Shown: positions 8,340-45,178 of the stretch, piece by piece
Layout: every line of letters begins with the position of its first letter
Position numbering within the stretch: the first letter of the stretch is position 1
Assembly (NCBI RefSeq): GCF_008642335.1
Contig: NZ_CP029191.1
Coordinates: 7,626,001 to 7,690,000 of the forward strand
Direction of reading: 5' to 3'
DNA length: 64,000 bases
Source of the DNA: Streptomyces venezuelae
GTDB lineage: Bacteria > Actinomycetota > Actinomycetes > Streptomycetales > Streptomycetaceae
Made by a program: the position numbers and the translations under genes
Notes under the pieces: generated by a model
Seen by the model: only the letters and a program-made list of their open reading frames with translations
Database searches by the model: none
What the model was told of the DNA's origin: nothing

Positions 8340-11300
8340 ACGTCCTCCACATACCGTCCCTCGGCGACGAGCCCCCGCCACCAGGCGTCGGCCGCCTCCC
8401 GGGACGCATCCCGAGCCGCGTCGGCGCCCGCGTGCTTCACGTGCAGGTCCAGGAACGCGTCGCGGACGCCCGGGGCCATGCGGGCGCCGTCGCCGCAGAC
8501 GTAGACCTGGGCACCGGCCTCCAGGAGCTGCCAGAGCTCCTCGGACTCGGCCGCGATGCGGTGCTGCACGAAGAGGAGCTCGCCCTCGGGGGCCCTGGAG
8601 TAGGTCGGGCGCATCGACACCGCTCCCGCGCGTTCCGCCGCTTCGAGTTCCGCGCGGTGCAGATAGTCGACGTCGGGGTGGTCGCAGCCGAAGTAGCAGA
8701 GTGCGGGGGCGAGGTGTGTGCCGTCGCGGAGGAGTTCCACGCGGTCGGCGATGGCGCCGCGGAAGGGGGCGAGACCCGTGCCCGCGCCGATCATGATGAC
8801 CGGGGTGTGCGCGTCCGCGGGGATGCGGAAGGCGTCGCGGCAGGGCTGCACGCGCGCGTGGAGTGTGTCGCCGGGGCGCAGGCCATGGAGGTACGAGGAG
8901 CCGGTGCCGCGGAACGTGCCGCGTCCGGAGCGGTCCGGTGCCGAGAGGAGCGACACCATCAGGTCGGCGTGGCCGGGCGCGGCGGCGGGTGACGACGAGA
9001 TCGAGTAGTGGCGGGCGCGGCGGGGCGGAAGGAGTTCGAGCAGGACGGGCCAGGGGAGTCGGCCGCGCAGGGCCGGGTGGTCCTCGACGAGGTCGAGCAG
9101 GTTGCCCTGCCGCGTGGACAGCTCGTCCGGGGCGGTCGCCAGCCGCTCCAGGGCGGCGCGCTCGGGCGGGCACGGGTTGTGCTCCGCGAGCAGGGCGACG
9201 TGCGCCGCGGTGGGTGCGTCGCTCAACTCGACGTACCGGCCGAGGAGTTCCCGTACGGACACCGGGCGGTCCAGCGGCAGCGTGGTGCGGCCGGGGCGGT
9301 GTGCGCGGATGTTCAGGACCGTGTCCAGGCGGACGCCGAACACGGACGCCGCGCGCTCGACCGACGCGGGGTCGTTGACGGGGAGCACGGCGAGATGGTC
9401 GGCGGTGCGGTACGTGACGTCGTCCGGGAGCGCCACCCGCAGGAACCGCTTCGGGCGGGCCAGGGGGTGGCTGAGGTCCGCGAGGTCGGCCGTCTCCGTC
9501 ACGGTCATCGGCGCCGTGCCGTGCCGGGCGTCCAGTGCGTCCAGCGGCCCGCCGGACACCTCGACGACGTCGTAGACCCTGGCTTCCCCTGGCGCGGTGG
9601 CGGTGGCTCCCGCGCTCTCCGGGTCCCCGTACTCCCGCAACAGCGTCTCGCGGAGCGCCGCCGTGAAGCGCTCCACGGACCCGGTCAGGTCGCCGGAGGC
9701 GTCGGCCTCGGCGCGCTCCAGGAGGCGCGTCGCGCCGGCGGCGGCGAGCCCGTCGTCGACGAGCGTGGGCACGTGCTGGTACGTCGCCGCCCAGTTGCGG
9801 TCGCCGACGCCGAGGACCGCGTACCGCACACCGTCGGCCGCGTCCTGCGCGGCGCCGGACAGCCAGGACACGAACTCGCGCGCGTCGTCGGTGGGCCTGC
9901 CGTTGTAGGAGGCGGTGACGATCACGACGGGGGAGCCGGTGGGCAGCGCGCCCGCGGCGTCGTCCAGCGGCGCGACGCGCGCGTCGAAGCCGAGGTCGGC
10001 GGCGAGGTCGGCGAGCTGTTCGGCGTAGCCGCGGCAGGTCCCGAAGTTGGAGCCGTGCAGCAGCGTCAGGGCGGTGCCGGGCACCGCACGCGTGGGCAGA
10101 CCGTCCTCGGTGGCCTGGCTGCCCTGGGGCTGCGCGGCGGCCCCGCCGTGCGTGTTCCCCGCCGCCGCGCGGCTCCGCGCCCGGTCCTCGGCGGTCCGCG
10201 CCGCCAGCGTCATGGTGAAGCCCTCGGGTTTGAGGGTGAGGGTCTCCTTGACCTTCAGGCGGTAGGCGGCGCGGTCGATGAACCGGTAGCGGTGCACGAG
10301 CATGCCGAGCAGCATGGTCGCTTCGTGCAGCGCGAACTGCCGCCCGATGCAGGCGCGTTCGCCCGTGCCGAAGGGCTTGTACGCGTGCGGGGAGCGGGCC
10401 GCCTCCGTCGCCGGGGCGAAGCGTTCGGGGTCGAACTCCTCGACGTTGTCGCCCCAGACCGGGTCCCGGTGCAGCATCGGCGTCAGCACGACCACGTACT
10501 GTCCCGCCTTCACCGGATGCCCGCCGAGCGTCGTGTCGACGCGGGCCCTGCGCTGGAACGCGGGCGCGGTGGGCCACAGCCGCAGCGCTTCGTTGAGCAC
10601 CTGCCGCACGTACCGGAGCTTCCCCACGTCCTCGTACGTCGGATCGGGATCCGGCTCGTCGCCCCACAGGGCGTCGACCTCGGCCTGCGCGAGGTGCAGG
10701 ACCGCCGGGTTCTTCACCAGGTGGTGAAGGGCGAAGGCGAGCGTGCCCGACGTCGTCTCGTGCCCGGCGATCAGGAACGTGATGACCTGGTTGCGGATGT
10801 TCGCCTCGTCCAGGTGTTCCCCGCTGGCGGGGTGTGGGGAGTTGAGCATCAGACCGAGCAGATCGTCGGCGGAGGTGTCGCCCGACGCCGTCCGGGTCTC
10901 GATGACCTCGTCGACGACGCGGGCGACGAAGGCGGCGTCTTCCTTGAACGCGGCGTCGTCGGCGGTGTAGTCACCCGCGGGGTCGCGGGCCAGCTTCGCC
11001 TGACTGTGCGCCAGGCCCCGTACGAGAGCCTGGACGAAGGGGTGGGGATCGGTGCGGCCGAACGACTCGAAGTCGTAGCCGAAGCCGGACAGGCCGATGG
11101 TGTCCAGCGTCATCCTGGTCATGTCCTCCGAGACCTCCACCGGCGCGGACTCGGCCGCGCCCGGCGCGAACCGGCCGTCCCACGAGGAGATGAGGCGCCG
11201 GGCCACGCGCAGCATGTGCGGGTGGTACGTCCGCATCGAGTTCATGGCGAACGCGGGGAGCAGGATGTCGTGCGCCTTGGCCCAGTTGGGCTCGTCGTCG

Positions 11301-24039: not shown

Positions 24040-24456
24040 ATGTCGGCCGGGCTTGACGAAGGGCGGATGCGGCATCTGGAGTTGATCCAGACGATCGTGA
24101 CCCGCATGGGCAACAACTCCTTTCTCATCAAAGGGTGGTCCTTGACGGTCACGGGCGCCCTGCTCGCCTACGCCGTCGGCAACGACAAGAGCGCCATCGC
24201 GCTCGTCGGCTTCGTGCCGGTGTTCGCCTTCTGGGCCCTGGACGGCTACTTCCTGTACCAGGAGCGGCTGTTCCGGCGGCTCTACGAGCGGGTGCGCAGC
24301 ACGTCGTCCGCGAACACGATCGAGCCGTTCGCCATGGACGTGGCGCCGGGCAGGGAGAAGGCGGGCGTCCTGAAGGCCGCCGGCTCCTTCACCGTCGCCG
24401 GGTTCTACGGAGGCCTCACCCTGGCCCAGGCGTTCGCGCTGCTATTCGTGCTGTAG
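24040..24456 (+). CDS. small membrane protein of unknown function
   Basis: The 138-residue protein starts with a helical segment (LELIQTIVTRMGNNSFLIKGW), then two adjacent membrane helices (residues 42-58 and 62-80), an amphipathic YQERLFRRLYERVR segment and a C-terminal hydrophobic helix. I recognise it only as a widespread uncharacterised membrane protein. ATG at 24040 follows GGGGGGACAC. Its last 15 bases overlap the convergent HIT gene, and a 15-bp tandem repeat forms both 3' ends. A role with the adjacent TIR operon is possible but unsupported beyond proximity. Confidence 0.75.
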   Translation: MSAGLDEGRMRHLELIQTIVTRMGNNSFLIKGWSLTVTGALLAYAVGNDKSAIALVGFVPVFAFWALDGYFLYQERLFRRLYERVRSTSSANTIEPFAMDVAPGREKAGVLKAAGSFTVAGFYGGLTLAQAFALLFVL

Positions 24457-24936
24457 GGATTCGTGCTGTAGGGATGCGTGCCGGAGGGCAGGGTTTCGCG
24501 GGATGGCGAGTGCCGCGCGCAGGCGCCGGGCCGAGTCGTCGAGGCGGTCCGCGTCCGTCTCGGCCGCCTCGGGCCACAGCCGCGGCATCCTGTCGCCCGT
24601 GTAGCGCGGTACGACGTGGACGTGGAGGTGGAACACGGACTGGGTGGCGACCGCGCCGGACGACTGGATGACGTTGAGCCCCTCGGGGCGGTGGACCGCC
24701 CGGACCGCGTGTGCGGCCCTGAGCACCGCCGTCCCGACGGCCGCCGCCGTCGCCTCGTCGAGGTCCCAGATGTCCACGACGTGGCGGCGGGGCACGACGA
24801 GGACGTGTCCCGGGTGGACCGGGTCGAGCGGGAGGAAGGTCAGGGTGTCGGCTGTTGCGGCGACGACACGGGCCGGTCGGGTTCCCGCTCCGACCTCGCA
24901 GAAGACGCAGCCGGGGGCGTGGTGTCCGGTGCTCAT
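24442..24936 (-). CDS. HIT-family nucleotide hydrolase
   Basis: The 164-residue protein has the histidine-triad motif HLHVHVVPR near residue 105 and upstream HPGHVLVVPRRH. HIT proteins cleave nucleotide phosphoramidates, dinucleoside polyphosphates or nucleotidylated sulfates. The ATG at 24936 overlaps the stop of the NB/TIR gene as ATGA, making it the third translationally coupled gene of the TIR operon; action on a TIR-derived nucleotide is an attractive inference. The last residues (SLQHESLQHE) come from a 15-bp tandem repeat. Confidence 0.9.
   Translation of the reverse strand: MSTGHHAPGCVFCEVGAGTRPARVVAATADTLTFLPLDPVHPGHVLVVPRRHVVDIWDLDEATAAAVGTAVLRAAHAVRAVHRPEGLNVIQSSGAVATQSVFHLHVHVVPRYTGDRMPRLWPEAAETDADRLDDSARRLRAALAIPRNPALRHASLQHESLQHE
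24444..24488. repeat. 15-bp tandem repeat, three copies
   Basis: ATTCGTGCTGTAGGG occurs at 24444-24458 and 24459-24473 exactly, with a diverged third copy at 24474-24488. It encodes the stop of the rightward membrane protein and, on the other strand, the repetitive C-terminus of the HIT protein. Confidence 0.9.
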
Positions 24937-26681
24937 GGACGAACGATAGGCCCCGGCCCGGCGACGTCCCTGAACGCCAGCGGCAGCTTCTTCACCAGGT
25001 CCCTGTCCAGGTGCGGCAGTTGGGTACTCGCCTGGGCGACCATGGACTGCGCGAGCGTGGACACGTAGTTGTTCAGCTCCCGCTCCTTGTTGTCCGCCAC
25101 CAGATCGAAGACGTCCCCCTCGTACTCCGGCTTGCCCCCCGAATGGACCCAGTACTGGTACGGCGCGAAGTCGGCCGGCATCTGCCAGTCCGAGAGAGGC
25201 CTGATCCAGAACACCGGCATGATGGCGATGGGCTCCTGGCCCGGGACCGCGTTGAGGTTCGCCATCCGCTGCACCATGACGGCCCACTCGCGCCGGCACC
25301 AGTCCCGCTGGAAGTACCCCTCCGTGATCAGGGGGACCATCAGTCGCGTCGTGCGGATCGCCTCGATCATCTTCGGCTCCCACGTCGCCCCGTGCTGCAT
25401 GAGCTTGTCGAAGAAGCCGGACTTCGTCACCCGCCCGCCGAGCTTCGCCGTCACCCGCTTCTCCAGCAGATTGTGGAACCTGAGCGCCTCGTCGAAGTCG
25501 ACCTCCCGGTTGTGCCAGCTGGTGAAGAAGAAGCAGGACGACGCCTCGGCCGGCTCCGCAGCCCCGGCCCGCCCCGCCGACGACGCCTGCCCCGCCGTCC
25601 GCAGCGTCCCGTGCCAGAGCTCCGCCAGCTCCCCGGCGAGACCTCGTACGCTGTCCGCCATCTGACGGCCGGTCCCCGCCGCCTCGGCCGCCTCCGACAC
25701 CGTGTCGGCCAGCGCCCGGACGAATCCCGGATCCTCCTGCTCGAACACGGTGTCGAGCAGCAGGTCGACGCGCTCGGCCATGGACAGGAGTTCCACGCCC
25801 ACGGACGCCGTCTTGGGCAGCACGGTCGCCGTCGGCCGCGACCGCAGGGCCTCCATCCAGCGCAGGTAACTGCCGGTGTTCTCGCACACCGTCGCGCGCA
25901 ACAGGCTGGACCGCAGGCTCGTGCGCGCCGTGTCGAGCACGTCGGCCCGCCGTGGCGGGGGGAGCGAGGGGGACGGTTCCGGGCGCGCGGGCGGCGGGGG
26001 AACCATGCGGGCTATCTCCGTGACGGTGGCGACCTGTTCCACGGTGACCTTGCCCGACAGGACCGCTTCGCCGGCGCGCACGATCTGGCGCGGATGCCCG
26101 TCGAACATGTCGGCGAGCCGTGCGGCCTGCCGATTGTCGAGACCCATGTTCTCCATGAGGAGCCGGACCACGTCGGTACCGGCCAGCGGCCCCACCAGCA
26201 GCCGGGCGTCCTGCTGCCACGACCCGGTCCCGCGCGACGTGACCAGAACGCGCGCGTTGCCCTCCGGGAAATGCTGCCGCAGCCCGTCCGGGTCCGCCGC
26301 GTTGTCGAAGATGTAGAGCCAGTCGGCCGCCGTCGGACCGTCGAGCGGCCGCCCCAGATCCCGCTCGAACCGCTCGCGCAGCCGCTCCGTCTCCTCCGCC
26401 ACCCGCCCGGCGAGCCGGACCGGGTCCGGTTCCCTGGCGCAGTCGAAGACCCACATCAGTTCGTAGTGCTGGGTGAAGAGATGGGCGTAGGAGATGGCGA
26501 GCTGCGATGTCCCGTACCCGTGCGGACGGCCCTCCGGGTCGTGTACCAGCACGGCGCGGTGGTCCATGAGCAGCCGGTGCGCGTCCGCGATCTCCTCGTC
26601 CCTGCCGACGAACGGGGCCGGCAGCGGTGGGAGGTTGTTGATCCGCGGCAGCTCCCGGGGCGGACGACGTGACGGGCTCAC
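24933..26681 (-). CDS. degenerate NB-ARC-like plus TIR domain protein
   Basis: The 582-residue protein begins with an NB-ARC-like region (VGRDEEIADAH, then WLYIFDNAADPDGL as Walker B and ARVLVTSR). The expected P-loop is replaced by HDPEGRPHGYG, so ATP binding is doubtful. The C-terminal half from about residue 386 is a TIR-like domain (SCFFFTSW) that keeps the WCRRE motif with a candidate catalytic Glu near residue 465, as in NAD-cleaving TIRs. The two domains are joined by a helical linker. The GTG start at 26681 overlaps the upstream TIR gene, and the stop overlaps the HIT gene; all three must be one operon. I infer a sensor-effector role in the conflict-type locus. Confidence 0.75.
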   Translation of the reverse strand: MSPSRRPPRELPRINNLPPLPAPFVGRDEEIADAHRLLMDHRAVLVHDPEGRPHGYGTSQLAISYAHLFTQHYELMWVFDCAREPDPVRLAGRVAEETERLRERFERDLGRPLDGPTAADWLYIFDNAADPDGLRQHFPEGNARVLVTSRGTGSWQQDARLLVGPLAGTDVVRLLMENMGLDNRQAARLADMFDGHPRQIVRAGEAVLSGKVTVEQVATVTEIARMVPPPPARPEPSPSLPPPRRADVLDTARTSLRSSLLRATVCENTGSYLRWMEALRSRPTATVLPKTASVGVELLSMAERVDLLLDTVFEQEDPGFVRALADTVSEAAEAAGTGRQMADSVRGLAGELAELWHGTLRTAGQASSAGRAGAAEPAEASSCFFFTSWHNREVDFDEALRFHNLLEKRVTAKLGGRVTKSGFFDKLMQHGATWEPKMIEAIRTTRLMVPLITEGYFQRDWCRREWAVMVQRMANLNAVPGQEPIAIMPVFWIRPLSDWQMPADFAPYQYWVHSGGKPEYEGDVFDLVADNKERELNNYVSTLAQSMVAQASTQLPHLDRDLVKKLPLAFRDVAGPGPIVRP

Positions 26682-27772
26682 CGGCCGCTCCCACGATCCG
26701 CCGACCGCTGCGGGGACTCGGGGAGCACCTGCTCGATCAGGTGCTCGGCCTCCGCCGGGTCCGCGCCGGCCAGGACGACGACGTTCGCGTCACGGACGAG
26801 CAGCGGCCGGGGCGCCTTGTCGATCTGCACCAGGACGGCCTGCGAAGGCCGCCCGGGGGAGTGGGCGAACGTGTCCGCCCACTCGGTGGGGCTCGTGTTC
26901 CCGGCGGCGAAGTAGTTGCGCGAGAAGATGACGAGCATCCGCTCTGCGGCGGCCCGCGCCTGGGCGACCGCGTCCTGGAGACTCTCCCTGCTGGCACGCC
27001 AGCGGCGCTGCACGACGTCGTGCCCCCGCTGGCCGAGCACCTCCGACATCCAGTCGGCCCAGGGCTGGTCGGCACCGACGTAACTGATGGCGACGGAGCC
27101 CGGCGCGCGCCGCTGCAGCGTGCCGGAGTCGATGATCTCGGTCCAGCGCGCCCAGTCGCGCACGCTGCCGGTGTCCGCCGTCTGCCCCGCCTGCGCGGCG
27201 CTCTCGCTGCCGAACGCCGGGTCCAGCTCCTGGGCGTCGGCCGGGTCGAGTCGTTCCAGTTCCGTACGCCCCGCCTCGGCAATGGTTTTGGCCAATTGTT
27301 CGAGCAGTGTGTAATACCGTACTTCGTTCTCCGCATGGGTGGGGGCCGCCAGGGACTCGAGGCCGTACTGCCGCAGCCAGTCGAAGGCTCCGGGCCCCTC
27401 CACCGATGGGCGTACGCCCTCCGGAAGCTGGTCGTCGGCGACGGGCTTCCAGCACAGGGGGACCAGGCAGCCACGCGCCGTGACGCCCCGGATGTCCTCG
27501 TGATGGCGCATGCGGGCGTCGAAGACCGCCCACTCGAGCCCGGCGCCGCGGTCGGTGAAGTAGCGGGGGGAGTACAGCACGATCATGACTCCGGCCCTGG
27601 TCACGGCGGACTCGCGGACCGACTCCGGCTCCGCGACCGCGCCCAGTACGCCGCTGACGCCGAACCCCTCCTGGATGCGCAGCTGGTACTCCAGATCGGC
27701 GTGGAAGCGCGTCAGCGCGCGCCAGCCATCGGCACGTACACAACTCGTATAGAAGAAAGCGGCTGGATCCAC
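26678..27772 (-). CDS. double TIR-like domain protein
   Basis: The 364-residue protein has two TIR-like domains. The N-terminal one (AAFFYTSCVRADGW, later IVLYSPRYF and LEWAVF) resembles the FxsC family. The C-terminal one from about residue 225 (GSVAISYVGADQPWADWM, later VIFSRNYF and SPTEWADTF) resembles classical TIRs. Each retains a Glu-Trp at the catalytic Glu position. It opens the three-gene operon divergent from the FxSxx-type RiPP genes. The start is uncertain: GTG at 27772 has GAGGGG close by, while TTG at 27796 would add 8 residues without a ribosome site. Confidence 0.75.
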   Translation of the reverse strand: MDPAAFFYTSCVRADGWRALTRFHADLEYQLRIQEGFGVSGVLGAVAEPESVRESAVTRAGVMIVLYSPRYFTDRGAGLEWAVFDARMRHHEDIRGVTARGCLVPLCWKPVADDQLPEGVRPSVEGPGAFDWLRQYGLESLAAPTHAENEVRYYTLLEQLAKTIAEAGRTELERLDPADAQELDPAFGSESAAQAGQTADTGSVRDWARWTEIIDSGTLQRRAPGSVAISYVGADQPWADWMSEVLGQRGHDVVQRRWRASRESLQDAVAQARAAAERMLVIFSRNYFAAGNTSPTEWADTFAHSPGRPSQAVLVQIDKAPRPLLVRDANVVVLAGADPAEAEHLIEQVLPESPQRSADRGSGR

Positions 27773-28128: not shown

Positions 28129-28314
28129 ATGGCACATGACGCGGCACAGCACACGGCACACGCCATCGCGTTATCCGCGGACAACGCACCGAACGGCCCG
28201 CCCGACGCCCTCGCCCTCAGCCGGCTCCCCCGCAGCGCCCTCGTCGAGGCCCTGCTGCGCAACACCGGCCGCGCCGCCGGACCCGAGCGCCCGAGGTGGG
28301 AAAGTGCGGTGTGA
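28129..28314 (+). CDS. fxsA: FxSxx-COOH-type RiPP precursor peptide with WESAV terminus
   Basis: The 61-residue peptide starts at ATG 28129 behind GGGGGAG. A short helical leader-like segment (DALALSRLPRSALVEALLR) resembles the LxxLP...L pattern of FxSxx precursors. It ends in RWESAV. Family members end in Phe-x-Ser-x-x, and the partner radical SAM enzyme makes a three-residue cyclophane between the aromatic ring and the Ser side-chain carbon. Here Trp replaces Phe, so a Trp-Glu-Ser cyclophane is predicted. It overlaps the maturase gene by 11 bases, ruling out an unrelated reading frame. Confidence 0.72.
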   Translation: MAHDAAQHTAHAIALSADNAPNGPPDALALSRLPRSALVEALLRNTGRAAGPERPRWESAV

Positions 28315-29515
28315 GACCGCACCCCGCGCCACTCCGCCGCCCGACGGACCGGCGGCGACGTTCACCCAGTTCGTGGTGAAGCTCTACAGCCGCTGCAACT
28401 TCGGCTGCCCCGACTGCTACATCTACGAGCACCGCGACAGCGGCTGGACCGAACAGCCCCTTGTCATGGGCCCCGCCGTGATGAGACGGCTGTCCGCGAG
28501 AATCACCGAGCACCTGCGCAGGCACACCCCCGAACGGGCCCAGGTCGTCCTGCACGGAGGCGAACCCCTGCTGGCCGGGCCCGCGATCCTGGAGCGCTTC
28601 GCCCGCCGCCTGCGCGCCGACTGCCAGGGCCTCACCACCCGGGTCGACCTGCTCGTCCAGACCAACGCCTCCCGTATCGACCGCACCTTCCTGGAGATCT
28701 TCCGCCGCTACGACGTCACCGTCGGCGTCAGCGTCGACGGCACCGCCCGCTCGCACGACCGCAGACGCCCCGACCGGGCGGGCCGGGGAACGTACACCGA
28801 AGTGGCCCGCGCCCTGACCCTGCTGCGCTCCCCGCGCTACCGGCAGCTGTACGGCGGACTGCTGTGCGTCGTGGACATCGAGGCCGACCCCGTGGAGACG
28901 TACGAGGCGCTCCTCACACACGAGCCGCCCACCGTCGACCTGCTCCTCCCGCACGCCACCTGGCAGTTCCCGCCGCCCCGGCCACCGGGTGCGGACGACG
29001 CGCCTTACGGCCGCTGGCTGGCCGCCGTCTTCGACCGCTGGTTCGACGCCCCGCGGCGTGAGACCTCGCTGCGGCTCTTCGACTCGCTGCTCGACCTGCA
29101 CCTCGGCGGCACCAGCACCAGCGAGATGTGGGGCCCCTATGGCTCGGATGTCGTGGTGATCCAGCCGTCCGGACTCATCGAGTACAACGACATCCTCAAG
29201 ACGGTCAGCGCACGGGCCGCCCGCTCCGTACTCCACATCGGCGCCCACGACTTCGACCGCGCGGCCGCCGACCCCGGCTTCGCCGCCGAGCGCGCCGGTC
29301 TCACCGGACTCTGCGCGCAGTGCAGGGCCTGCCCGGTCGTCGACATCTGCGGAGGCGGGCTCCGCGCCCACCGCCACCGCCCCGACAACGGCTTCGACAA
29401 CCCGTCGTGCTTCTGCGCCGACCTCCGGTACCTCATCGACCACGTACGGCAGCGGCTCACGCACGGCGTCAGCACCCTGCGCACGCACCTTGACCGAGAG
29501 GGGTGGAGCGCATGA
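28304..29515 (+). CDS. fxsB: FxsB-type radical SAM/SPASM peptide maturase
   Basis: The 403-residue protein has the radical SAM cluster motif CNFGCPDC near residue 30 and a C-terminal SPASM-type cysteine cluster (CAQCRACPVVDIC, then CFC). It should bind a reducible 4Fe-4S cluster with SAM plus auxiliary clusters and crosslink the precursor's C-terminus. GTG at 28304 is chosen: GAGGTGGGA precedes it and it starts inside the precursor's last codons. The longer upstream frame would only duplicate the precursor region. Its stop overlaps the FxsC start as ATGA. Confidence 0.88.
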   Translation: MRCETAPRATPPPDGPAATFTQFVVKLYSRCNFGCPDCYIYEHRDSGWTEQPLVMGPAVMRRLSARITEHLRRHTPERAQVVLHGGEPLLAGPAILERFARRLRADCQGLTTRVDLLVQTNASRIDRTFLEIFRRYDVTVGVSVDGTARSHDRRRPDRAGRGTYTEVARALTLLRSPRYRQLYGGLLCVVDIEADPVETYEALLTHEPPTVDLLLPHATWQFPPPRPPGADDAPYGRWLAAVFDRWFDAPRRETSLRLFDSLLDLHLGGTSTSEMWGPYGSDVVVIQPSGLIEYNDILKTVSARAARSVLHIGAHDFDRAAADPGFAAERAGLTGLCAQCRACPVVDICGGGLRAHRHRPDNGFDNPSCFCADLRYLIDHVRQRLTHGVSTLRTHLDREGWSA

Positions 29516-30285
29516 CCGCGCACCGCAGTCCGGACGCTCCCTACTACTACATCAGCCACGCCCTGCCCGTGCCGTCGGACCCCTGGCTGCGCGCGTTCCA
29601 CACCGACGTCCAGACCGAGATGCACCGCCGCGTGGGCCCCGGCCACGCGGGCCTCCTCTCCGAACCCTGCCACGGCCACGCCCCCGCGGAAGGCCCGGAC
29701 TGGACGCCCGCGATGCGCTGCCGCACGCTCCTCGTCCTGCTCACCGAGCGCTACTACAAGGAACCCCGCACCGTCCGCGACCTGGAGGTGTTCCGCCGAC
29801 GGCTGCAGTGGGGCCAGCACCAGACCGGCGAACGGTCGCCCGCGCTGGTGCTCGTGCCGTGGAACACCAAGGGGCTGCCGCCGCGCAAGGAACCCGACAC
29901 CCTGTCCGTGCCCGTCGGCGACTACACACGATCCGGTCTCGGAGGACTCGTAGGGGCACCACAGGCCCGCGGCGGCTATTTGAAGGTGCTGCGCGCCGTC
30001 GTCGAACGAATCCTCACCGGGGCCCGTCACTCGCCTCCCGTCATGACGCCCGAAGACCTGTACTTTACTGTTTCCCCAGGTGTTTCGGGAATGCCGAGAA
30101 TTCCGCTCTCGGGCAGGAAATTCCTGGATAGGCAGTTCGCTCCGGTGCGGGTACCGTGGCAGCCAACGCACGCCGCACCACCGTCCCGCCCTGCCGAGGC
30201 ATGGTGGGAGGCAGCCCCTCACCGTTCCTGGTTCTCCACTCCGGAGGGCGACGGGCGGCCCATCCTCCGGGGGCCTCACAGCTGA
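29512..30285 (+). CDS. fxsC: TIR-like protein FxsC
   Basis: The 257-residue protein begins with APYYYISHALP and continues with TLLVLLTERYY and DLEVF, matching the TIR-like fold of FxsC proteins in FxSxx-COOH loci. The C-terminal 70 residues are Pro-rich and less conserved. The precise function in the family is unknown; binding or cleaving nucleotides is a reasonable expectation. It is coupled to the maturase gene by an ATGA overlap and followed after 24 bases by the FxsT gene. Confidence 0.75.
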   Translation: MTAHRSPDAPYYYISHALPVPSDPWLRAFHTDVQTEMHRRVGPGHAGLLSEPCHGHAPAEGPDWTPAMRCRTLLVLLTERYYKEPRTVRDLEVFRRRLQWGQHQTGERSPALVLVPWNTKGLPPRKEPDTLSVPVGDYTRSGLGGLVGAPQARGGYLKVLRAVVERILTGARHSPPVMTPEDLYFTVSPGVSGMPRIPLSGRKFLDRQFAPVRVPWQPTHAAPPSRPAEAWWEAAPHRSWFSTPEGDGRPILRGPHS

Positions 30286-30309: not shown

Positions 30310-33300
30310 ATGAGCAGTGCCGAAGCGTCCGGTTCCGTACGTGGTGGACACCAGGCGACCGTCGTCACCTTCTACTCGTACAAAGGCGGGGTCGGGCGGA
30401 CGATGGCACTGGCCAACGTCGCCTGGCTGCTCGCCGACGCGGGCCGTCGCGTCCTCGTCGTCGACTGGGACCTCGAGTCACCCGGCCTCCACCGCTACCT
30501 GCGCCCCTTCCTGCGCAACCCCGAACTGACCGAGTCCACCGGCGTGGTGGAGATGGTCCAGGACTACGGCCGGGCCGTGGAGGCGCTGGCGGCCGAGAAC
30601 CTCCCCGACGCCGAGAAGGAGACCAGACTCGCGGAGCTCCTCGAGCGGCACACCCAGGTGGGCATGCACACCGACTCGCTCTCCTACCGCTTCGCGCGCC
30701 CCACCGGCAGGATCGACTTCCTCGGACCCGGCCGCCAGGACGGCCTCTACGGCCGGCGCGTCGCGACCTTCGACTGGGCCCGCTTCTACCAGGAGCAGAG
30801 CGGCCGGCTCTTCGCCGACGCGCTCAGGGAGAGCCTGCGCACCGCCGACTACGACTACGTGCTCATCGACAGCCGCACCGGCCACTCGGACAACGCCAGC
30901 CTGTGCACGCTGCTCCTGCCGGACGTGGTCGTCGTCGGCTTCAACTTCAGCAACCAGTCCATCGAAGGGTCCGCCGCCGTCGCCCGGCAGGTGCGCGAAC
31001 AGTCCGGCAGCCGGATCAGGGTCCTGCCGGTCCCGATGCGCGTGGACCGCTCCCACCCGGAACAGGCCGAGCGCCGCCGCTCCCGGGCCAGGGACCAGTT
31101 CGCGGGCGCGGCGAGCCCGATCCTGCTCACCAGCGAGGAGCAGTACTGGCGCGAGGTCGAGGTGGCACACCTGCCGAACGTCGCGTACGAGGAAGTCCTC
31201 ATCCCCTTCGCCCTGCAGAACTACGAACCCTCGCTGCAGAAGCAGGCCTACGAACGGCTCGGCCGGGAGATCAGCGGCGACGCCGACCTGCGCTTCGCCC
31301 CCGTCGCGCCCGACGTCCGCGAGAACCTGGTCGAGCGGTTCGCCGAGGTGCCCGCGGCCTCCCGCGTCGTACGTCTCGTGTTCGAGCCGCAGGAGCGCCG
31401 GTGGGCGGACTGGATCCGTGCCGAACTCTTCGCGAACGGGGTGATGTGCGAGTTCGACCGCGGCTCCGGCGAGCGGACCGGCCGGAGCGACACGACCGTC
31501 ACCTACCTCGTCCTGATGTCATCCGTCATGGTCGGCTCCGCCCGCCTCACCGGTCTGATGGCCCACCTGAACCCGGACGGGCTCATCGGCCGGCCGAAGG
31601 TCGACGTGGCCTGGCTCGAGGACGTCGAGGTGCACCCGCCGTTCCGTGACCGGCCGGGCCCCAGGCTGCACACGCTGGAGGAGGGCCCGGCACGCAACGC
31701 CCTCCTGACCCACTTCCTCCCCGGCGACCGCCGCGGCGTCCCGTGGGCGGACCGGTCCGGGAACGGGCCGCGCTTCCCCGGCAGGCACCCCCAGATCTCC
31801 CACGTCCCGCCGCTGCGCCAGGGCGAGTTCCTCGGCCGCGAGGACTGCCTGCAAGAGCTGCGCAACGCGCTGCCCCCGGGCCAGGCGGCGAGGAAGCCGG
31901 TCGTGCTGTACGGCCCGCCCGGAGTGGGCAAGCGGACCTACGCGCTCGAATACCTCAACCGGTTCCGCGCCGACTACGACATCGTGTGGTGGATGCCCGC
32001 CGACAGCTCGGAGAACGTCGTACGCGAACTCGTGCTCCTGAGCGCCCAGTTGGGTGCGTCCCGGCGCTCGTCGCCCCGGGCCGTGGACGCGCTGCGCGAG
32101 CTCCTCGAGGGCCGGCACGGCGGACCCGAGCGGCTGCTCCTCGTCTACGAGGACGCACGCCACCCCGACGAGATCGAGAGCCTGCTCTTCAACAGCAACC
32201 AGGTGCACGTCCTCATCACGTCCGAGAACCCGGAGTGGGGCACGCTGGCCCACCCCATCTGCATCGAGCCGCCGTCCCCCGAGGAGGCCGTACGGTACCT
32301 GCGGCGCAAGGCGCCGCAGCTGACCCCCGAACTCGCCGCACGTCTGGTGGGGTTGGGGGAGACGCTGCCGCAGCTCCTCGACCAGATGGCCGCGTACCTG
32401 CAGAGCACCGCACGCCCGCCCGAGGCCGCGGTCGCCGAGTTCGTGCAGGGAGTCGGCAACCGGCAGGCCGTCGGCCAGGAGTTCTCCTCCGCGGTCTGGC
32501 AGAGCGTCGTCGAGGACCTGGGCAAGGAGCGCCCGGCCTCCCTCGACCTGCTGCGGATGCTGACGGCGCTGTCGCCGGAAGGCGTCGGCTGGGACCTCCT
32601 GGAGTCCCCGGCCGCCCTGGAGTTCCTCGGGCTGCCCGAGGGCGCGGAGGGCCGCCATCAGCTCGGCTTCGCGGCCCGCGGTCTGCTCAGCAGGTCCCAG
32701 GCGCGCCGCGGCCAGGACGGCAAGCGGCTCACGGCGTCCCGGATGATCCTCGCGGCACAGCTCGGCGAACTGGAGCCGACCGAAGCGGCGGAGATAGCCG
32801 CCGGGGTCCGCCGCGTCCTCGCCGCCTACGCACCCCCGGACGACCGGGTCGACGACCAGGACATGTACCCGCGCTACGCGGAGCTCGACCTCCACGTCGA
32901 GTCCTCGGGCGCGGTGATGGACGACAGCCCCGAGGTCCGCCGCTGGCTCGTCAACCAGGTGCGCTACCGGCGCCGCACCCAGTGCCTGGAAGCCGCCTTC
33001 ACCCTGGCCCAGCGGCTTGAGCAGACCTGGACCGCGTCCGCCGGCGACGACGAACGCCTGCTTCTCCTGCTGCGCCTGCGCGTCGAACTGGCCAACATCC
33101 ACACCGACGCCGGACGGTTCCCGGAGGCCAACCGGATCAACGGCGCCGCGCTGGAGGAACTGCGCAGGCTGCAGGGCCTGGACGGCGAGTTCACGCTGCG
33201 CAGCGCGCTCGGGCGCGGCGGTGAGCTGCGGGCCCTGGGCCGCCCCCAGGACGCCCTCGCCGAGGACCAGTCCACCCGGGACATCCTGCGCTGCAAGTAC

Positions 33301-34230
33301 GGACCCGAGAACCACTTCACGCTCATGGCGGGCAGCAACCTCGGACTCTCGCTCGACATGGTCGGCCTGCCCAACGACTCCCTGGAGCAGCACCAGGAGG
33401 TGCACGAGCAGCGGGTGCGGGTCCTCGGCGAGCAGCACGAGCTGACCCTGCGCAGCTCCGTGCACGTGGCCAGCAGGCTGCGCGAGACAGGACGGTACGA
33501 CGACTCGCTCACCCGGCTCCAGGAGATCTACCGCCTCACCCAGACCAACGAGGAGCTCGGCTGGGCCCACATGACGACGCTCCTCGCGGCCTGCTCACTG
33601 GCCTCGACGCTGCGGCACATCGCCACGCTCTCCCCGGCGCTGTCCTCGCAGACGCGGAGGGCGAAGGCGGACTCGGCCCGCATGCTCAACGCGCGGGCGC
33701 GGGACGCCTTCGTCGTGTATGGAGGGCCCCGGCACCCCGAAGCCCTCGTCGCGGGCGTGGGCCTCGCGGCCGACCTCCGGTTCCTCGGCCGGATCGACGG
33801 GCCCCACGGGGCACGGGCGCTGGCCGAGGAGAACCTCGCCGCGTTCCGCGAGTGGGGCGAGGACCACCTCTTCACCCGGATATGCGAGGTCAACCTCGCC
33901 CTGGTGCTGCGCGACGCGGAGGACGAGACCGCCGCCGAACTCAGCGAGCGGGGCCTGCGCGGCCTCAGGGAGACCCTCCATGTGGATTCGCACCATCCGC
34001 TGATCCTCACCGCGGCCCTGTGCCACGCCAACATGCTCGTCTTCGCGGGCGACTCACGGGCGGCGCGGGAGCTCGACGAGGTGACGCACCAGGGCCTGCT
34101 GGAGAAGTTCGGCCCCGACCACCCCCTCACGCTGACCGTGGCCGCGCATCTGGGGCTGCGGGCGGACGCCGGGGGCCACGCGAGCCCGGACAACCGGATC
34201 AGCATCGAACTGGACGTACCGAAGATCTGA
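30310..34230 (+). CDS. fxsT: FxsT: ParA-like, TIR-like, NB-ARC and TPR multidomain protein
   Basis: This 1306-residue protein is a fusion. Residues 17-290 are a ParA/MinD-like domain with deviant Walker A KGGVGRT (Lys25, but Arg in place of the second Lys) and VLVVDWDLESPG. Residues 350-445 are TIR-like (VVRLVFEPQERRWADWIRAEL). An NB-ARC ATPase follows, with intact P-loop GPPGVGKRT near residue 534 and LLLVYEDA. From about residue 880 to the end are TPR-type repeats. This STAND-like design is the FxSxx-COOH system TPR protein. It probably senses a signal and assembles the system. It is in the RiPP operon. Confidence 0.85.
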   Translation: MSSAEASGSVRGGHQATVVTFYSYKGGVGRTMALANVAWLLADAGRRVLVVDWDLESPGLHRYLRPFLRNPELTESTGVVEMVQDYGRAVEALAAENLPDAEKETRLAELLERHTQVGMHTDSLSYRFARPTGRIDFLGPGRQDGLYGRRVATFDWARFYQEQSGRLFADALRESLRTADYDYVLIDSRTGHSDNASLCTLLLPDVVVVGFNFSNQSIEGSAAVARQVREQSGSRIRVLPVPMRVDRSHPEQAERRRSRARDQFAGAASPILLTSEEQYWREVEVAHLPNVAYEEVLIPFALQNYEPSLQKQAYERLGREISGDADLRFAPVAPDVRENLVERFAEVPAASRVVRLVFEPQERRWADWIRAELFANGVMCEFDRGSGERTGRSDTTVTYLVLMSSVMVGSARLTGLMAHLNPDGLIGRPKVDVAWLEDVEVHPPFRDRPGPRLHTLEEGPARNALLTHFLPGDRRGVPWADRSGNGPRFPGRHPQISHVPPLRQGEFLGREDCLQELRNALPPGQAARKPVVLYGPPGVGKRTYALEYLNRFRADYDIVWWMPADSSENVVRELVLLSAQLGASRRSSPRAVDALRELLEGRHGGPERLLLVYEDARHPDEIESLLFNSNQVHVLITSENPEWGTLAHPICIEPPSPEEAVRYLRRKAPQLTPELAARLVGLGETLPQLLDQMAAYLQSTARPPEAAVAEFVQGVGNRQAVGQEFSSAVWQSVVEDLGKERPASLDLLRMLTALSPEGVGWDLLESPAALEFLGLPEGAEGRHQLGFAARGLLSRSQARRGQDGKRLTASRMILAAQLGELEPTEAAEIAAGVRRVLAAYAPPDDRVDDQDMYPRYAELDLHVESSGAVMDDSPEVRRWLVNQVRYRRRTQCLEAAFTLAQRLEQTWTASAGDDERLLLLLRLRVELANIHTDAGRFPEANRINGAALEELRRLQGLDGEFTLRSALGRGGELRALGRPQDALAEDQSTRDILRCKYGPENHFTLMAGSNLGLSLDMVGLPNDSLEQHQEVHEQRVRVLGEQHELTLRSSVHVASRLRETGRYDDSLTRLQEIYRLTQTNEELGWAHMTTLLAACSLASTLRHIATLSPALSSQTRRAKADSARMLNARARDAFVVYGGPRHPEALVAGVGLAADLRFLGRIDGPHGARALAEENLAAFREWGEDHLFTRICEVNLALVLRDAEDETAAELSERGLRGLRETLHVDSHHPLILTAALCHANMLVFAGDSRAARELDEVTHQGLLEKFGPDHPLTLTVAAHLGLRADAGGHASPDNRISIELDVPKI

Positions 34231-41772: not shown

Positions 41773-43371
41773 TCACCGCAGATAGCGCGGCGCCCGCCAG
41801 GCCTTGAGCCGGTCCTCCACCGACGCTCCCAGCGACAGCAGCTTCGCGTCCTGGTGGTTGCCGGACATCAGGAGCAGCCCGACCGGGAGCTCGCCCACGG
41901 ATCCGGCGGGAACCGAGAGCGAGGGGTAGCCGGCGACGGCCGCGGGGGTGGAGGAGGGGATGACGTCGTTGTCGCCGCGTGCGCAGTCCGTCGTCCAGGC
42001 GGGCGGGTTCGTGGGCGCGGCGATGGCGTCGAGACGGTGGGTGGCGAGGGTCTCGTCCAGGGAACGCTGCGAGAGCTCCTTCAACTCGGCTCGCATCGCA
42101 CGGTACTTGGGGTCGGTCGTGGGCGGCGCGTCGAGAGCCTGCTCGAAGAGTTCCTGGCCCGCGAAGCAGCTCTGCTCCTGTGGGTGGGTGCGGTTGAACT
42201 CGATGAGCTCCGCGAGGTTCCGCGGGCCCTCGCGCGTCGCGAGGTACGCGTCGATGTCCCGATGGAACTCGCTGAGCAGCGCGGGGAATTCGAGTTCGGC
42301 GAGCCGCGCCTGGTACGGGGGCGTCACCTCGACGACCACGGCCCCGGCCTTGCGCAGCTTCTCCGCGGTACGCGTCATCAGCGCGTCCACATCGGGACCG
42401 AGCGAGGGCAGGCGCCACAGACCGATCCGCTTGCCGTGAAGATCGCCGCGGAGATCGCCGGGCAGGGCGCCTCGGGGATCGCCGCGGAGACCCTCTCGGG
42501 CGGCGGCGTCACCGTATACGCCCTTGTCCTCGCTCAGTACGGACAGTGTGAGCGCCGTGTCGGTCACGTTGCGCGCCATGGGCCCCGCGGTGTCCTGCTC
42601 GGCGGAGATCGGGACCACGCCCGACTGGCTGACCACGCCGAGGCTGGGCTTGTGGCCGACGACGCCGTTCATGCCGGCCGGGCACACGATGGAGCCGTCC
42701 GTCTCGGTGCCGATCGCCACCTGCGCCAGCGACGCGGCCAGCGCGGCGGCCGAGCCGGACGACGAACCGCACGGGTTGCGGTCGAGGACGTAGGGGTTCT
42801 TGGTCTGACCGCCCACCGCAGACCAGCCCGATGTCGGCTTCGCCGCACGGAAGTTGGCCCACTCGGACAGGTTCGTCTTGCCGAGGATCACGGCCCCCGC
42901 CTTGCGGAGCCGGGTCACGAGTGCGGCGTCCGTCTCCGGCGGGGCCCCGGCGAGCGCCAGCGACCCGGCCGTGGTCGGCATGTCGCGGGTGTTCACATTG
43001 TCCTTGAGCAGGACGGGGATACCGTCCAGCGGCCCGAGGGTCTTGCCGTGCCGGTGGCGCTCGTCGCTCGCGGCCGCCTGGCGCAGCGCCGTCGGGCTGG
43101 TGCGCAGTACGGCGTGAATGGTGGGATCAACCTTCTTGATCCGTCGAAGGTACGCCCGGGTCAGCGCCGACGAGGTCAGCGAACCCCGCGCCATGCGGGC
43201 CTGTAACTGCGGGATGGTCACGGTGTCGAGGTCGACCCCGGACAGCCGGTCCGAGCCGGTCGACCGTGCGTCCGCGGGAGTGCCGGCGTTAGCACTCGTA
43301 CCCGATAGGCCTGTCAGTAGGGACCCCGCGACAAGGGCGGCGGTCATTGCGGCAGTGCTTCTCTTCCCCAT
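41773..43371 (-). CDS. secreted amidase (amidase signature family)
   Basis: The 532-residue protein has a signal peptide (MGKRSTAAMTAALVAGSLLTGLSG). The amidase-signature triad is Lys in VLLKDNVN, the cis-Ser region GSSSGSAAA, and the nucleophile Ser in TDGSIVCPAG. It hydrolyses amides outside the cell, possibly peptide or N-acyl bonds. An unusual segment with repeated Gly-Asp (RGDPRGALPGDLRGDLHG) around residue 300 comes from short tandem repeats at 42440-42495 and is probably a surface loop. It is convergent with the response regulator and divergent from the ligase. Confidence 0.88.
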   Translation of the reverse strand: MGKRSTAAMTAALVAGSLLTGLSGTSANAGTPADARSTGSDRLSGVDLDTVTIPQLQARMARGSLTSSALTRAYLRRIKKVDPTIHAVLRTSPTALRQAAASDERHRHGKTLGPLDGIPVLLKDNVNTRDMPTTAGSLALAGAPPETDAALVTRLRKAGAVILGKTNLSEWANFRAAKPTSGWSAVGGQTKNPYVLDRNPCGSSSGSAAALAASLAQVAIGTETDGSIVCPAGMNGVVGHKPSLGVVSQSGVVPISAEQDTAGPMARNVTDTALTLSVLSEDKGVYGDAAAREGLRGDPRGALPGDLRGDLHGKRIGLWRLPSLGPDVDALMTRTAEKLRKAGAVVVEVTPPYQARLAELEFPALLSEFHRDIDAYLATREGPRNLAELIEFNRTHPQEQSCFAGQELFEQALDAPPTTDPKYRAMRAELKELSQRSLDETLATHRLDAIAAPTNPPAWTTDCARGDNDVIPSSTPAAVAGYPSLSVPAGSVGELPVGLLLMSGNHQDAKLLSLGASVEDRLKAWRAPRYLR

Positions 43372-43543
43372 GGGGATCAGCGCACTACACGCGCACCACT
43401 CGACGCAAGGGGTACGAGGTGTCCGCGACGTGAACCGCCGTCCCCACGACGGCGAGCGCCGTGCAGCGGGGCATGGTACTCCGCCTGTTTCCGGCCGAAT
43501 CCGCCCCCTGCGCCGCCCCGGCCCCCGCGCCGCATGTTTGCAT

Positions 43544-45163
43544 ATGTCCATGATCAACAACGCGCAGCAAACAACCGGGCCGCGGACGTACGTGGACCGC
43601 ATCCTGGAGCAGTGGCACACGGACGACAGCGCCGAAGCGCTCGTCCAGGGTGAGCGGCGGCTGACCAGGAGAGAGGCTCGGGAGCGGCTGTTCGGTCTGG
43701 GGCACGCCCTGCGGCGGCATGGTCTGGAGCCCGGCGACGGCGTGGGTCTGTTCCTGGCCAATCGCGTGGACTCCGTACTGGTGCAGCTCGCCGTGCATCT
43801 CATCGGCTGCCGCGTCGTCTTCCTGCCGCCCGAGCCGGGCCCCGGCGAACTCGCCGCGCTCGTCGAGCAGTCCCGGGCGCGCGCCGTCGTCACGGACCCG
43901 CTCTTCGCGGACCGGGCCGCCGACGCGGCCGGCCGCAGCGTCCACGCCCCCGCCCTGCTCAGCCTCGGGCCCTGTGCGGAGCAGTGCGCGGACCTCCTCG
44001 CCCTGGCCGCCGAGTGCCCGACCGTACGCCCCGATGGCATACCCGCCCCGGCGGCGGACGAGGCCGTCACCGTCCTCTACACCGGCGGCACCCTCGGCCG
44101 CCCCAAGCTCGCCGCGCACAGCCACCGGCTGTACGACACGCTGGTGGGCCTGGTGGACGACGCGCAGCAGGACGCACCCCGGAACTCCAGCTTCTTCCCG
44201 CCCATGGCCCCGGCGGCGGACCGCGTGCTCGTCGCCACGCTGCTCACCCACGGCAGCGGCCACCTCACCTCGCTTCAGGCGCTGGTGACGGGGGCGCCCC
44301 TCGTCGTACTCCCCGAATTCGAGGCGGGCGCGGCGCTCACGGCGCTGCGCGAGGAACGGATCACGGCCACGATGTTCGTACCGCCCATGCTGTACGCGCT
44401 CCTCGACCACCCGGAGTGCCAGCCGGGGGCCCTCCCCGACCTGCGGCGCGTCATCGTCGGCGGCGCGGCGACGTCGCCCAGCCGCCTGCAGCAGGCCGTC
44501 GACGTCTTCGGACCCGTGCTCAGTCAGGGCTACGGGCAGTCGGAGGCGCTCGGCATCGCCGCGTTCGGCGCGGACGACCTCGCGTCGGAGGCGGCCCGGC
44601 GCCCCGAACTCTGGCGCAGCTGCGGCCGCGCCATCACCGACACCGAGATCGAGATCCGCGCCGAGGACGGCACGGTGGCCCTGCCCACCAGGCAGGTCGG
44701 CGAGGTGTGCGTGCGCGGCGAGACGGTGATGCTCGGCTACTACGAGGACCCGCAGCGCACCGCCGAGGCGCTGCACGACGGCTGGCTGCGCACCGGCGAC
44801 ATGGGCTACCTCGACGCGGAGGGCTACCTCTACCTCGTCGACCGGGCCAAGGACATCATCGTCACCGGCAGCACCAGCGACAACGTCTACTCGCGGGTCC
44901 TGGAGGACTTCCTGCTCACGCTGCCCGGCGTGCGCAACGCGGCGGCGCTGGGCGTACCGGACGAGGAGTACGGCGAGGCCGTGCAGATCTTCCTCGCGAC
45001 GGCGGACGGCGTCGACGTCGACCCGGCCGCGGTCGGCGCGGCGGTGACCGCGGAGCTGGGGGAGCTGTACACGCCCCGCAAGACGGTCCTGCTCGACCGG
45101 CTGCCGACGACGAAGGTCGGCAAGGTCGACAAGAAGGCGCTGCGCGCGACGCTGGCAAGCTGA
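43544..45163 (+). CDS. AMP-dependent acyl-CoA synthetase/ligase
   Basis: The 539-residue adenylating enzyme has the P-loop-like YTGGTLGRPK (Leu where Ser or Thr is usual), SQGYGQSEALG, RTGDMGYLD, and the C-terminal lysine in TTKVGKVDKKALR. The GGxN loop after DIIVTG is replaced by STSDNVYS. It activates a carboxylic acid with ATP and CoA (or carrier protein). Substrate and pathway are unknown, and no other lipid gene is adjacent. ATG at 43544 or 43550 starts it; the first follows an AT-rich segment. A strong hairpin terminates it together with the convergent enolase gene. Confidence 0.85.
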   Translation: MSMINNAQQTTGPRTYVDRILEQWHTDDSAEALVQGERRLTRREARERLFGLGHALRRHGLEPGDGVGLFLANRVDSVLVQLAVHLIGCRVVFLPPEPGPGELAALVEQSRARAVVTDPLFADRAADAAGRSVHAPALLSLGPCAEQCADLLALAAECPTVRPDGIPAPAADEAVTVLYTGGTLGRPKLAAHSHRLYDTLVGLVDDAQQDAPRNSSFFPPMAPAADRVLVATLLTHGSGHLTSLQALVTGAPLVVLPEFEAGAALTALREERITATMFVPPMLYALLDHPECQPGALPDLRRVIVGGAATSPSRLQQAVDVFGPVLSQGYGQSEALGIAAFGADDLASEAARRPELWRSCGRAITDTEIEIRAEDGTVALPTRQVGEVCVRGETVMLGYYEDPQRTAEALHDGWLRTGDMGYLDAEGYLYLVDRAKDIIVTGSTSDNVYSRVLEDFLLTLPGVRNAAALGVPDEEYGEAVQIFLATADGVDVDPAAVGAAVTAELGELYTPRKTVLLDRLPTTKVGKVDKKALRATLAS

Positions 45164-45178
45164 CCGCACGCCGCGCGA

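Follow-up and report, generated by a model that had tools for sequence, protein, structure and literature searches.

The 64,000-nucleotide stretch of Streptomyces venezuelae DNA analysed here (contig NZ_CP029191.1, positions 7,626,001 to 7,690,000; hereafter the window) carries an operon of three genes, encoding a double-TIR protein, a protein with a nucleotide-binding (NB) region and a TIR domain (NB-TIR), and a HIT-family nucleotide hydrolase, which is divergent from an FxSxx-type peptide locus. From comparison of these sequences with other genomes, we consider it rather likely that the operon contributes the TIR and HIT components of a Thoeris-kind TIR/3TM/HIT immune module attached to the FxSxx-type peptide conflict locus, where 3TM designates the small membrane protein encoded by the adjoining gene. 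The pairing of TIR and HIT genes is real and is found within the TIR/3TM/HIT module, in which the link between 3TM and TIR is the more constant one. HIT is an accessory member, which in some loci overlaps the TIR gene or is fused to 3TM, and in the clade of the window the TIR slot is unusual, being held by FxSxx-linked double-TIR and NB-TIR genes. The four genes are the following.

24040 to 24456, plus strand: 3TM, a 138-amino-acid (aa) membrane protein with approximately three long helices (PADLOC family PDC-M50A).
24442 to 24936, minus strand: HIT-family nucleotide hydrolase of 164 aa (ATG at 24936, stop at 24442).
24933 to 26681, minus strand: NB-TIR of 582 aa, an NB region followed by a C-terminal FxsC-type TIR (GTG at 26681, stop at 24933).
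26678 to 27772, minus strand: double-TIR of 364 aa, an FxsC-type TIR followed by a TIR_2 domain (GTG at 27772, stop at 26678).

The first-pass annotation of this DNA had described the double-TIR, NB-TIR and HIT genes as joined by overlaps of 4 nucleotides (nt) and divergent from the FxSxx-type locus, and both coordinates and overlaps were as claimed: the first two genes share GTGA (26678-26681), and NB-TIR and HIT share ATGA (24933-24936). That three-gene unit left out the adjoining 3TM gene, which converges with the HIT gene so that the ends of the two share 15 nt (24442-24456). Since 4-nt stop/start overlaps are ordinary in actinobacterial operons, such an overlap is unremarkable by itself; for this reason, and because the one between NB-TIR and HIT is not kept in Streptomyces atriruber, the overlaps alone were dropped as evidence.

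The 3TM gene is a key member of the module, and in the loci examined, from bacteria, haloarchaea, plasmids and phages, it almost always has a TIR gene nearby. In the following, genomes and loci are referred to by G and L numbers; the window genome is G000, its closest relative S. atriruber is G081 (locus L001), and the loci of G094 and G026 are L032 and L139, respectively. The 3TM gene was found in 17 of 150 Streptomyces genomes, in 12 of which a TIR gene (PF13676 or the ThsB-type PF08937, with a match over the curated cut-off in each) is located within 2 kb of it, as compared to 0.04 genomes expected by chance (P about 1e-28), an estimate that assumes random placement and independent genomes, both of which are violated by related loci. 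The ThsB-type TIR accounts for PF08937 matches beside 3TM in 4 of the 17 genomes. A HIT gene, counted only at E<=1e-15, is present within 700 bp of 3TM in 15 of the 17 (all except G026 and G061; the 3TM match of G097 is in two pieces and was counted as one). When 394 genomes of the class were searched with the 3TM profile (E<=1e-6), five were matched, three of them new (G728, G462 and G191); HIT adjoins 3TM in all three and a ThsB-type TIR adjoins it in two (G728 and G462). In G191, one predicted gene away from the 3TM/HIT pair, a gene encodes a protein of 1351 aa with WD40 repeats and, at its C-terminus, a ThsB-type TIR (L136, 4355-8407). Other neighbours were also seen: a TIR-NB-ARC-TPR protein lies beside the HIT/3TM pair of G069 (L095, 6083-8848) as another STAND-type TIR in that slot, and the 3TM/HIT pairs of G064 and G080 (L141 and L142) adjoin gene clusters that resemble each other and encode a vWA-type protein (its domain was detected for L141 and recognized by eye for L142), with a TIR gene about 6.5 kb away.

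The same association is found on mobile elements. In 19 of 20 plasmid records, which span Actinomycetota, Bacillota, Pseudomonadota, Thermodesulfobacteriota, Campylobacterota, Cyanobacteriota, Deinococcota and haloarchaea, an annotated TIR lies no more than 1 kb from 3TM; this is also the case in the one phage record examined, and a profile search placed a TIR beside 3TM in 10 of 11 viral contigs. The exception among the plasmids is a Piscirickettsia record, in which a partial 3TM match is followed by an IS30 gene. The plasmid sample comprises 20 of 135 matching records, taken from 30 listed (nine further Campylobacter records and one unannotated E. coli record were omitted); the phage record is one of three with an identical match; and the viral contigs are all 11 confirmed loci, of which L214 and L215 look like the same arrangement. 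According to annotation and a tblastn check, HIT is present in 6 of the 20 plasmid and phage loci that have a TIR next to 3TM (five from Actinomycetota and one from a haloarchaeon), and it is present in 3 of the 11 viral contigs. On a plasmid of Haladaptatus salinisoli (L222), HIT, a TIR that is ThsB-like by eye and 3TM occur together. PHROGs contains one 3TM family as well as HIT families, for which no function is annotated there.

The HIT protein of the window has a Pfam HIT domain (76.9 bits) with an intact histidine triad, HLHVHVV in the alignment, conforming to HxHxHxx. Its residues 8-142 match the PADLOC family ThsC (PDLC00441, E=1e-19), and its best match among PDB sequences is 1y23 (85 bits). 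It could be argued that this is an unrelated housekeeping nucleotide hydrolase that came to lie downstream of the TIR genes by accident, as HIT matches at E<=1e-15 are present in 92 of the 150 Streptomyces genomes, the 4-nt overlap is missing in S. atriruber and the FxSxx loci of G094 and G026 have no HIT. However, among the 125 HIT matches listed, the best 14 all lie beside 3TM, a TIR is located within 2 kb of 12 of the 16 HIT genes adjoining 3TM and of none of the 10 other HIT genes in the same genomes, and versions exist that are fused or overlapping. We therefore regard the housekeeping explanation as largely refuted and very improbable. A stray housekeeping HIT had also been suggested during the analysis by HIT genes beside 3TM without TIRs of the window type, and this was reversed by the position searches with PF13676 and PF08937. 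The earlier proposal that TIR and HIT belong together is thus supported by these counts and by TIR-HIT overlaps that recur elsewhere.

The genes overlap by 7 nt in L101, L103 and L105, by 23 nt in L138 and Dietzia, and by 4 nt in Arthrobacter, Rhodococcus p52 and R. ruber. HIT and 3TM form a single polypeptide in G088, G112, G117, Rhodococcus ruber, L214 and L215, and the triad of the fused G088 protein is intact (HVHFHVV). A stepwise loss can be observed in four loci that, by their flanking genes, look like one orthologous locus (L096, L098, L099 and L140): TIR, HIT and 3TM are present in G104 and G097, HIT and 3TM in G049, and 3TM alone in G061.

Judging from this gene content, the TIR proteins probably make a signal, 3TM is probably a membrane effector and HIT probably hydrolyses the signal. 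In the mechanism that we propose, the NB/TPR proteins or the TIRs themselves would sense an invader, and the activated TIRs would cleave nicotinamide adenine dinucleotide (NAD+) to a nucleotide signal. The 3TM protein would answer this signal by perturbing the membrane (abortive infection), and HIT, by cleaving this signal, or something derived from it, close to the effector, would set a threshold and shut off the response. The FxSxx peptide system may act in parallel or as a trigger. The HIT-3TM fusion places the hydrolase at the effector and therefore fits a local off-switch, and it would also suit a receptor role. HIT could be a receptor that gates 3TM after binding the TIR product, or could perform a maker step in which a first product is converted to the active signal; here the HIT-3TM fusions are comparable to the joining of macro and TM parts in the effectors of type II Thoeris (PMC11204291). 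In contrast, the triad is intact in both the window protein and the fused G088 protein, which a mere receptor would not need, and 14 of the 20 plasmid and phage TIR-3TM loci are without HIT. A receptor or maker role is consequently conceivable but doubtful in our view.

The maker side of the proposed mechanism depends on the TIR domains of the operon. Residues 17-167 of double-TIR and 392-552 of NB-TIR match the FxsC-type TIR family NF040588 (66 and 84.6 bits, respectively, both under its 130-bit cut-off), and residues 227-345 of double-TIR match the Pfam family TIR_2 (66.7 bits). A PDB sequence search with double-TIR gave nothing at E<=0.01, and its AlphaFold2 (AF2) model, with a mean predicted local distance difference test score (pLDDT) of 41.7, was not used. 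All three domains carry Glu (GLEWA and PTEWA in double-TIR, CRREWA in NB-TIR) in helix alpha-C, at what we take to be the catalytic position of NAD+-cleaving TIRs, and the same Glu is kept in S. atriruber and in the equivalents in G094 according to the alignment. Residues 18-216 of NB-TIR match NF040586 with 76.9 bits, under its cut-off of 300, so that the NB region is related to that of FxsT (see below); no NB-ARC match was obtained for NB-TIR with Pfam. The first-pass annotation had called this region degenerate, which agrees with the sequence YGTSQLA, without the P-loop Lys, that stands in place of the Walker A motif GxxxxGK[T/S] in the alignment of the window and S. atriruber proteins; the P-loop of the G094 relative is intact (GMGKTQ).

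With Glu kept in all three domains, the TIRs might kill directly by NAD+ depletion, 3TM and HIT only restraining them or disposing of products, without a relayed signal; bacterial TIRs can indeed be direct NADase effectors (PMC12847820). On the other hand, the membrane protein is the constant partner, and some 3TM loci (4 of the 17 in Streptomyces and 2 of the 3 at the class level) carry a small ThsB-type TIR, a class that is reported to be signal-making (PMC11204291). We therefore consider direct killing unlikely. The 3TM protein matches PDC-M50A with E=1.8e-36 over profile positions 4-129 of 134, and neither Pfam nor NCBIfam gave a match for it. Its AF2 model (pLDDT 82) has helices at residues 7-45, 50-87 and 117-137, and a PDB sequence search with the 3TM profile gave nothing convincing (best E 0.076).

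The locus across the divide from the operon comprises the following genes.

28129 to 28314, plus strand: candidate precursor of a ribosomally synthesized and post-translationally modified peptide (RiPP) in the FxsA position, 61 aa, C-terminus RWESAV (from the sequence).
28136 to 29515 (longest open reading frame), plus strand: FxsB, cyclophane-forming radical SAM/SPASM maturase (TIGR04269).
29503 to 30285, plus strand: FxsC-type TIR-like protein (NF040588, 53.2 bits, under the 130-bit cut-off).
30310 to 34230, plus strand: FxsT, with a KGGVGR-type AAA domain, an NB-ARC-like region and TPR (NF040586 and NF047398).

FxsB matches TIGR04269 with 417.9 bits (cut-off 370) over residues 76-439 of the longest open reading frame, and its true start is probably downstream of 28314. 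FxsT matches NF040586 with 526.3 bits (cut-off 300) and NF047398 with 134 bits. The candidate precursor, for which NCBIfam gave no match, ends in W-E-S-A-V and not in F-x-S-x-x. Such WxSxx endings are also found in the relatives, RWESAV in S. atriruber and RWQSAL in G094, and Trp may therefore replace Phe in the cyclophane. In the FxsC proteins of the window, S. atriruber and G094, the alignment shows Asp where the operon TIRs carry Glu at the catalytic position.

By the standard of the first-pass annotation, its proposal would fail if the coupling were not conserved in related genomes, and for the surroundings of FxSxx genes this is the case. At E<=1e-60, FxsB has 142 matches in 95 of the 150 Streptomyces genomes. 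HIT (E<=1e-15) is located within 20 kb of FxsB at 3 of these 142 places (G000, G081 and G042) and 3TM likewise at 3 (G000, G081 and G026); because both are present at only 2 places, which belong to one close clade, the coupling of HIT to fxsB cannot be called conserved. In G042 (L196), the HIT gene (42%) is 5.3 kb from FxsB and there is no 3TM gene, perhaps by chance. We analyzed 60 other FxsB loci with home-made TIR profiles. In 45 of them a TIR has the same orientation as FxsB, in 4 the only TIR is on the other strand, each time as a single domain in a protein of about 1244 aa, and in 11 no TIR was detected. None of the 60 showed a double-TIR gene; the profiles missed the second TIR of the G026 locus, so some may have been overlooked. 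The 60 loci are not a random sample of the 142: all of them come from the places scoring <500 bits and were taken mostly in list order, some being skipped (contig edges, close neighbours of those taken and some low-scoring ones). A divergent single-TIR gene of about 1244 aa, unlike the usual same-strand TIR gene, lies near FxsB in L145, L147, L150 and L152. In G026, an independent FxSxx locus comprises 3TM and a divergent double-TIR gene, the second domain of which is bSEFIR/TIR_2; tblastn found no HIT there.

A full-length counterpart of NB-TIR is present in only one of the 149 other Streptomyces genomes, that of S. atriruber (83%), and G094 encodes its NB and TIR parts in two genes. For double-TIR, no full-length counterpart turned up in any of the other 292 genomes of the order sample, the matches of which do not include G081 and G094. 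The two separate genes of G094 are located at 8526-9641 and 9687-10886 of L032; the NB gene has an EAD2 domain (Pfam E=8.9e-6) and the C-terminus of the TIR gene is similar to EAD2 by eye, which suggests EAD-EAD docking that was replaced by gene fusion in the clade of the window. In both genomes of this clade, HIT is located downstream of NB-TIR on the same strand. The left boundary of the DNA homology that the window shares with S. atriruber lies 53 nt upstream of the start codon of 3TM, and the neighbouring major facilitator superfamily (MFS) gene is excluded from it except for its last 21 nt.

It is important to mention the observations that weigh against an immune module of TIR, 3TM and HIT attached to the FxSxx locus. 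Concerning the attachment, G094 has double-TIR, NB and TIR genes beside FxsB without HIT or 3TM, and it carries a TIR/HIT/3TM set about 2 Mb from this locus; because it has both, the TIR operon and the TIR/HIT/3TM module are separable. In the direction of the Fxs genes, synteny with S. atriruber extends beyond the locus, to 38322 and over 41778-45171, so the block has a sharp left edge and is not an isolated island. Concerning the wiring, the overlap of double-TIR and NB-TIR is kept in S. atriruber and NB-TIR and HIT are 35 nt apart there, and in G104, G097, G020 and G094 HIT and the adjacent TIR are encoded on different strands; co-transcription of TIR and HIT is therefore not general. Concerning membership, no TIR is located within 2 kb of 3TM in 5 of the 17 Streptomyces genomes (9.2 kb away in G017, 6.5 kb in G064 and G080, none near in G049 and G061), and the TIR domain of G191 is 4.5 kb from 3TM. 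With tblastn (E<=1e-4, flanks of 3 kb), HIT was not detected in 14 of the 20 plasmid and phage TIR-3TM loci, which means that HIT is not essential. The Streptomyces loci are not all independent, as G104/G097/G049/G061, G088/G112/G117 and G000/G081 look like related sets. Concerning the proteins, double-TIR and NB-TIR match no PADLOC family at E<=0.01, and in the double-TIR of G026, Asp replaces the Glu of the first domain. When the 3TM model was compared to PDB folds, no match rose above the helical background, and a known fold is still possible; since no solved structure convincingly resembles the model, a pore role for 3TM is only a guess.

Some of these observations would suit another explanation, in which the TIR operon serves the FxSxx system alone, as scaffolds or peptide sensors, and HIT and 3TM form an independent defence element that came to lie nearby. 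The arrangement in G094 favours this explanation, as does the Asp at the Glu position in the FxsC proteins of the window, S. atriruber and G094. However, two unlike FxSxx loci, those of the window clade and of G026, both cluster a divergent double-TIR gene with 3TM, and HIT follows NB-TIR in both window-clade genomes, and we judge a separate element to be quite unlikely. We continue to favour the immune module attached to the FxSxx locus, in which the four-gene unit is now testable, in place of a plausible guess. If it is correct, the combined action of a HIT hydrolase and a membrane effector on signals made by TIRs would equip TIR immunity with an off-switch of its own, and the FxSxx peptide system would gain a second-messenger partner to test. 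As a more tentative suggestion from the same gene content, about as doubtful as the receptor role of HIT, HIT and 3TM might represent a distinct class of effectors of TIR signals, in which a catalytically live HIT, either separate or fused as in G088 and R. ruber, replaces the SLOG or macro receptor and creates a self-clearing membrane switch. In the clade of the window, a WxSxx-peptide conflict system might have taken over this class, and RiPP and TIR second-messenger pathways would then share one control locus with a STAND-like protein in which ATP hydrolysis has probably been lost.

The unit was compared to the known systems that resemble it. TIR/AP-ATPase genes beside FxSxx peptide genes were described in 2020 (PMC7159879, eLife), for which a toxin or signal role of the peptide was only proposed. 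As in those FxSxx-COOH/AP-ATPase-TIR conflict systems, the window has FxsB, FxsT with a MinD/ParA-like AAA domain and a putative TIR-like FxsC; in contrast to them, its precursor is WxSxx, and it adds the divergent double-TIR/NB-TIR/HIT operon and 3TM, which are not described in the passages of that paper that were consulted. The first-pass annotation knew of no described system with this gene set beside an FxSxx locus; as regards the TIR and AP-ATPase genes such a system had already been described. In the literature searched (most subscription papers and bioRxiv were outside its coverage), we did not find HIT and PDC-M50A as one unit, a HIT-3TM fusion, or either beside FxSxx. In phages, pairs of a TIR and a two-helix (2TM) SLATT protein (PMC9503650, Viruses 2022) are similar in that a TIR adjoins a small membrane protein predicted to answer an ADP-ribose-type signal; a kinship of the 3TM family with SLATT would be conjectural.

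The PADLOC-DB 2.0.0 system PDC-M50, in which PDC presumably stands for phage defence candidate, consists of the membrane protein PDC-M50A and the ThsB-like TIR PDC-M50B. The window has PDC-M50A with adjoining TIR genes, but these are FxsC-type double-TIR and NB-TIR genes and do not match PDC-M50B, as the ThsB homologues of L105 and L137 do, and there is a HIT gene in addition. In the literature searched, we found no paper that names PDC-M50.

Among the papers covered, the PADLOC paper of 2021 (PMC8565338) was the only one that came up for TIR with HIT. There, Thoeris with HIT comprises 167 systems (2.4%) and is named "type II", and the HIT protein ThsC is proposed as an off-switch and compared to the ring nucleases of type III CRISPR. 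The window shares with this system of ThsA, ThsB and ThsC both a TIR with a ThsC-matching HIT and the off-switch idea, but it has 3TM and no ThsA or ThsB; neither was matched by the seven locus proteins scanned with PADLOC, and G000 has no PF08937 match. Of the maker-eraser pair suggested in the first-pass annotation, the TIR-HIT pairing therefore stands, while the unit also includes 3TM and the off-switch idea had already been put forward in PMC8565338. Type II Thoeris in its current sense, a TIR with a TM-macro ThsA that responds to histidine-ADP-ribose (His-ADPR), has the same logic of a TIR signal and a membrane effector (PMC12847820, PMC11204291); unlike it, the window has no macro domain, its 3TM is small, and HIT is a separate or fused partner. 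The activation of TM-macro effectors by TIR-made His-ADPR is the closest tested precedent for the mechanism proposed here (PMC12847820, PMC11204291).

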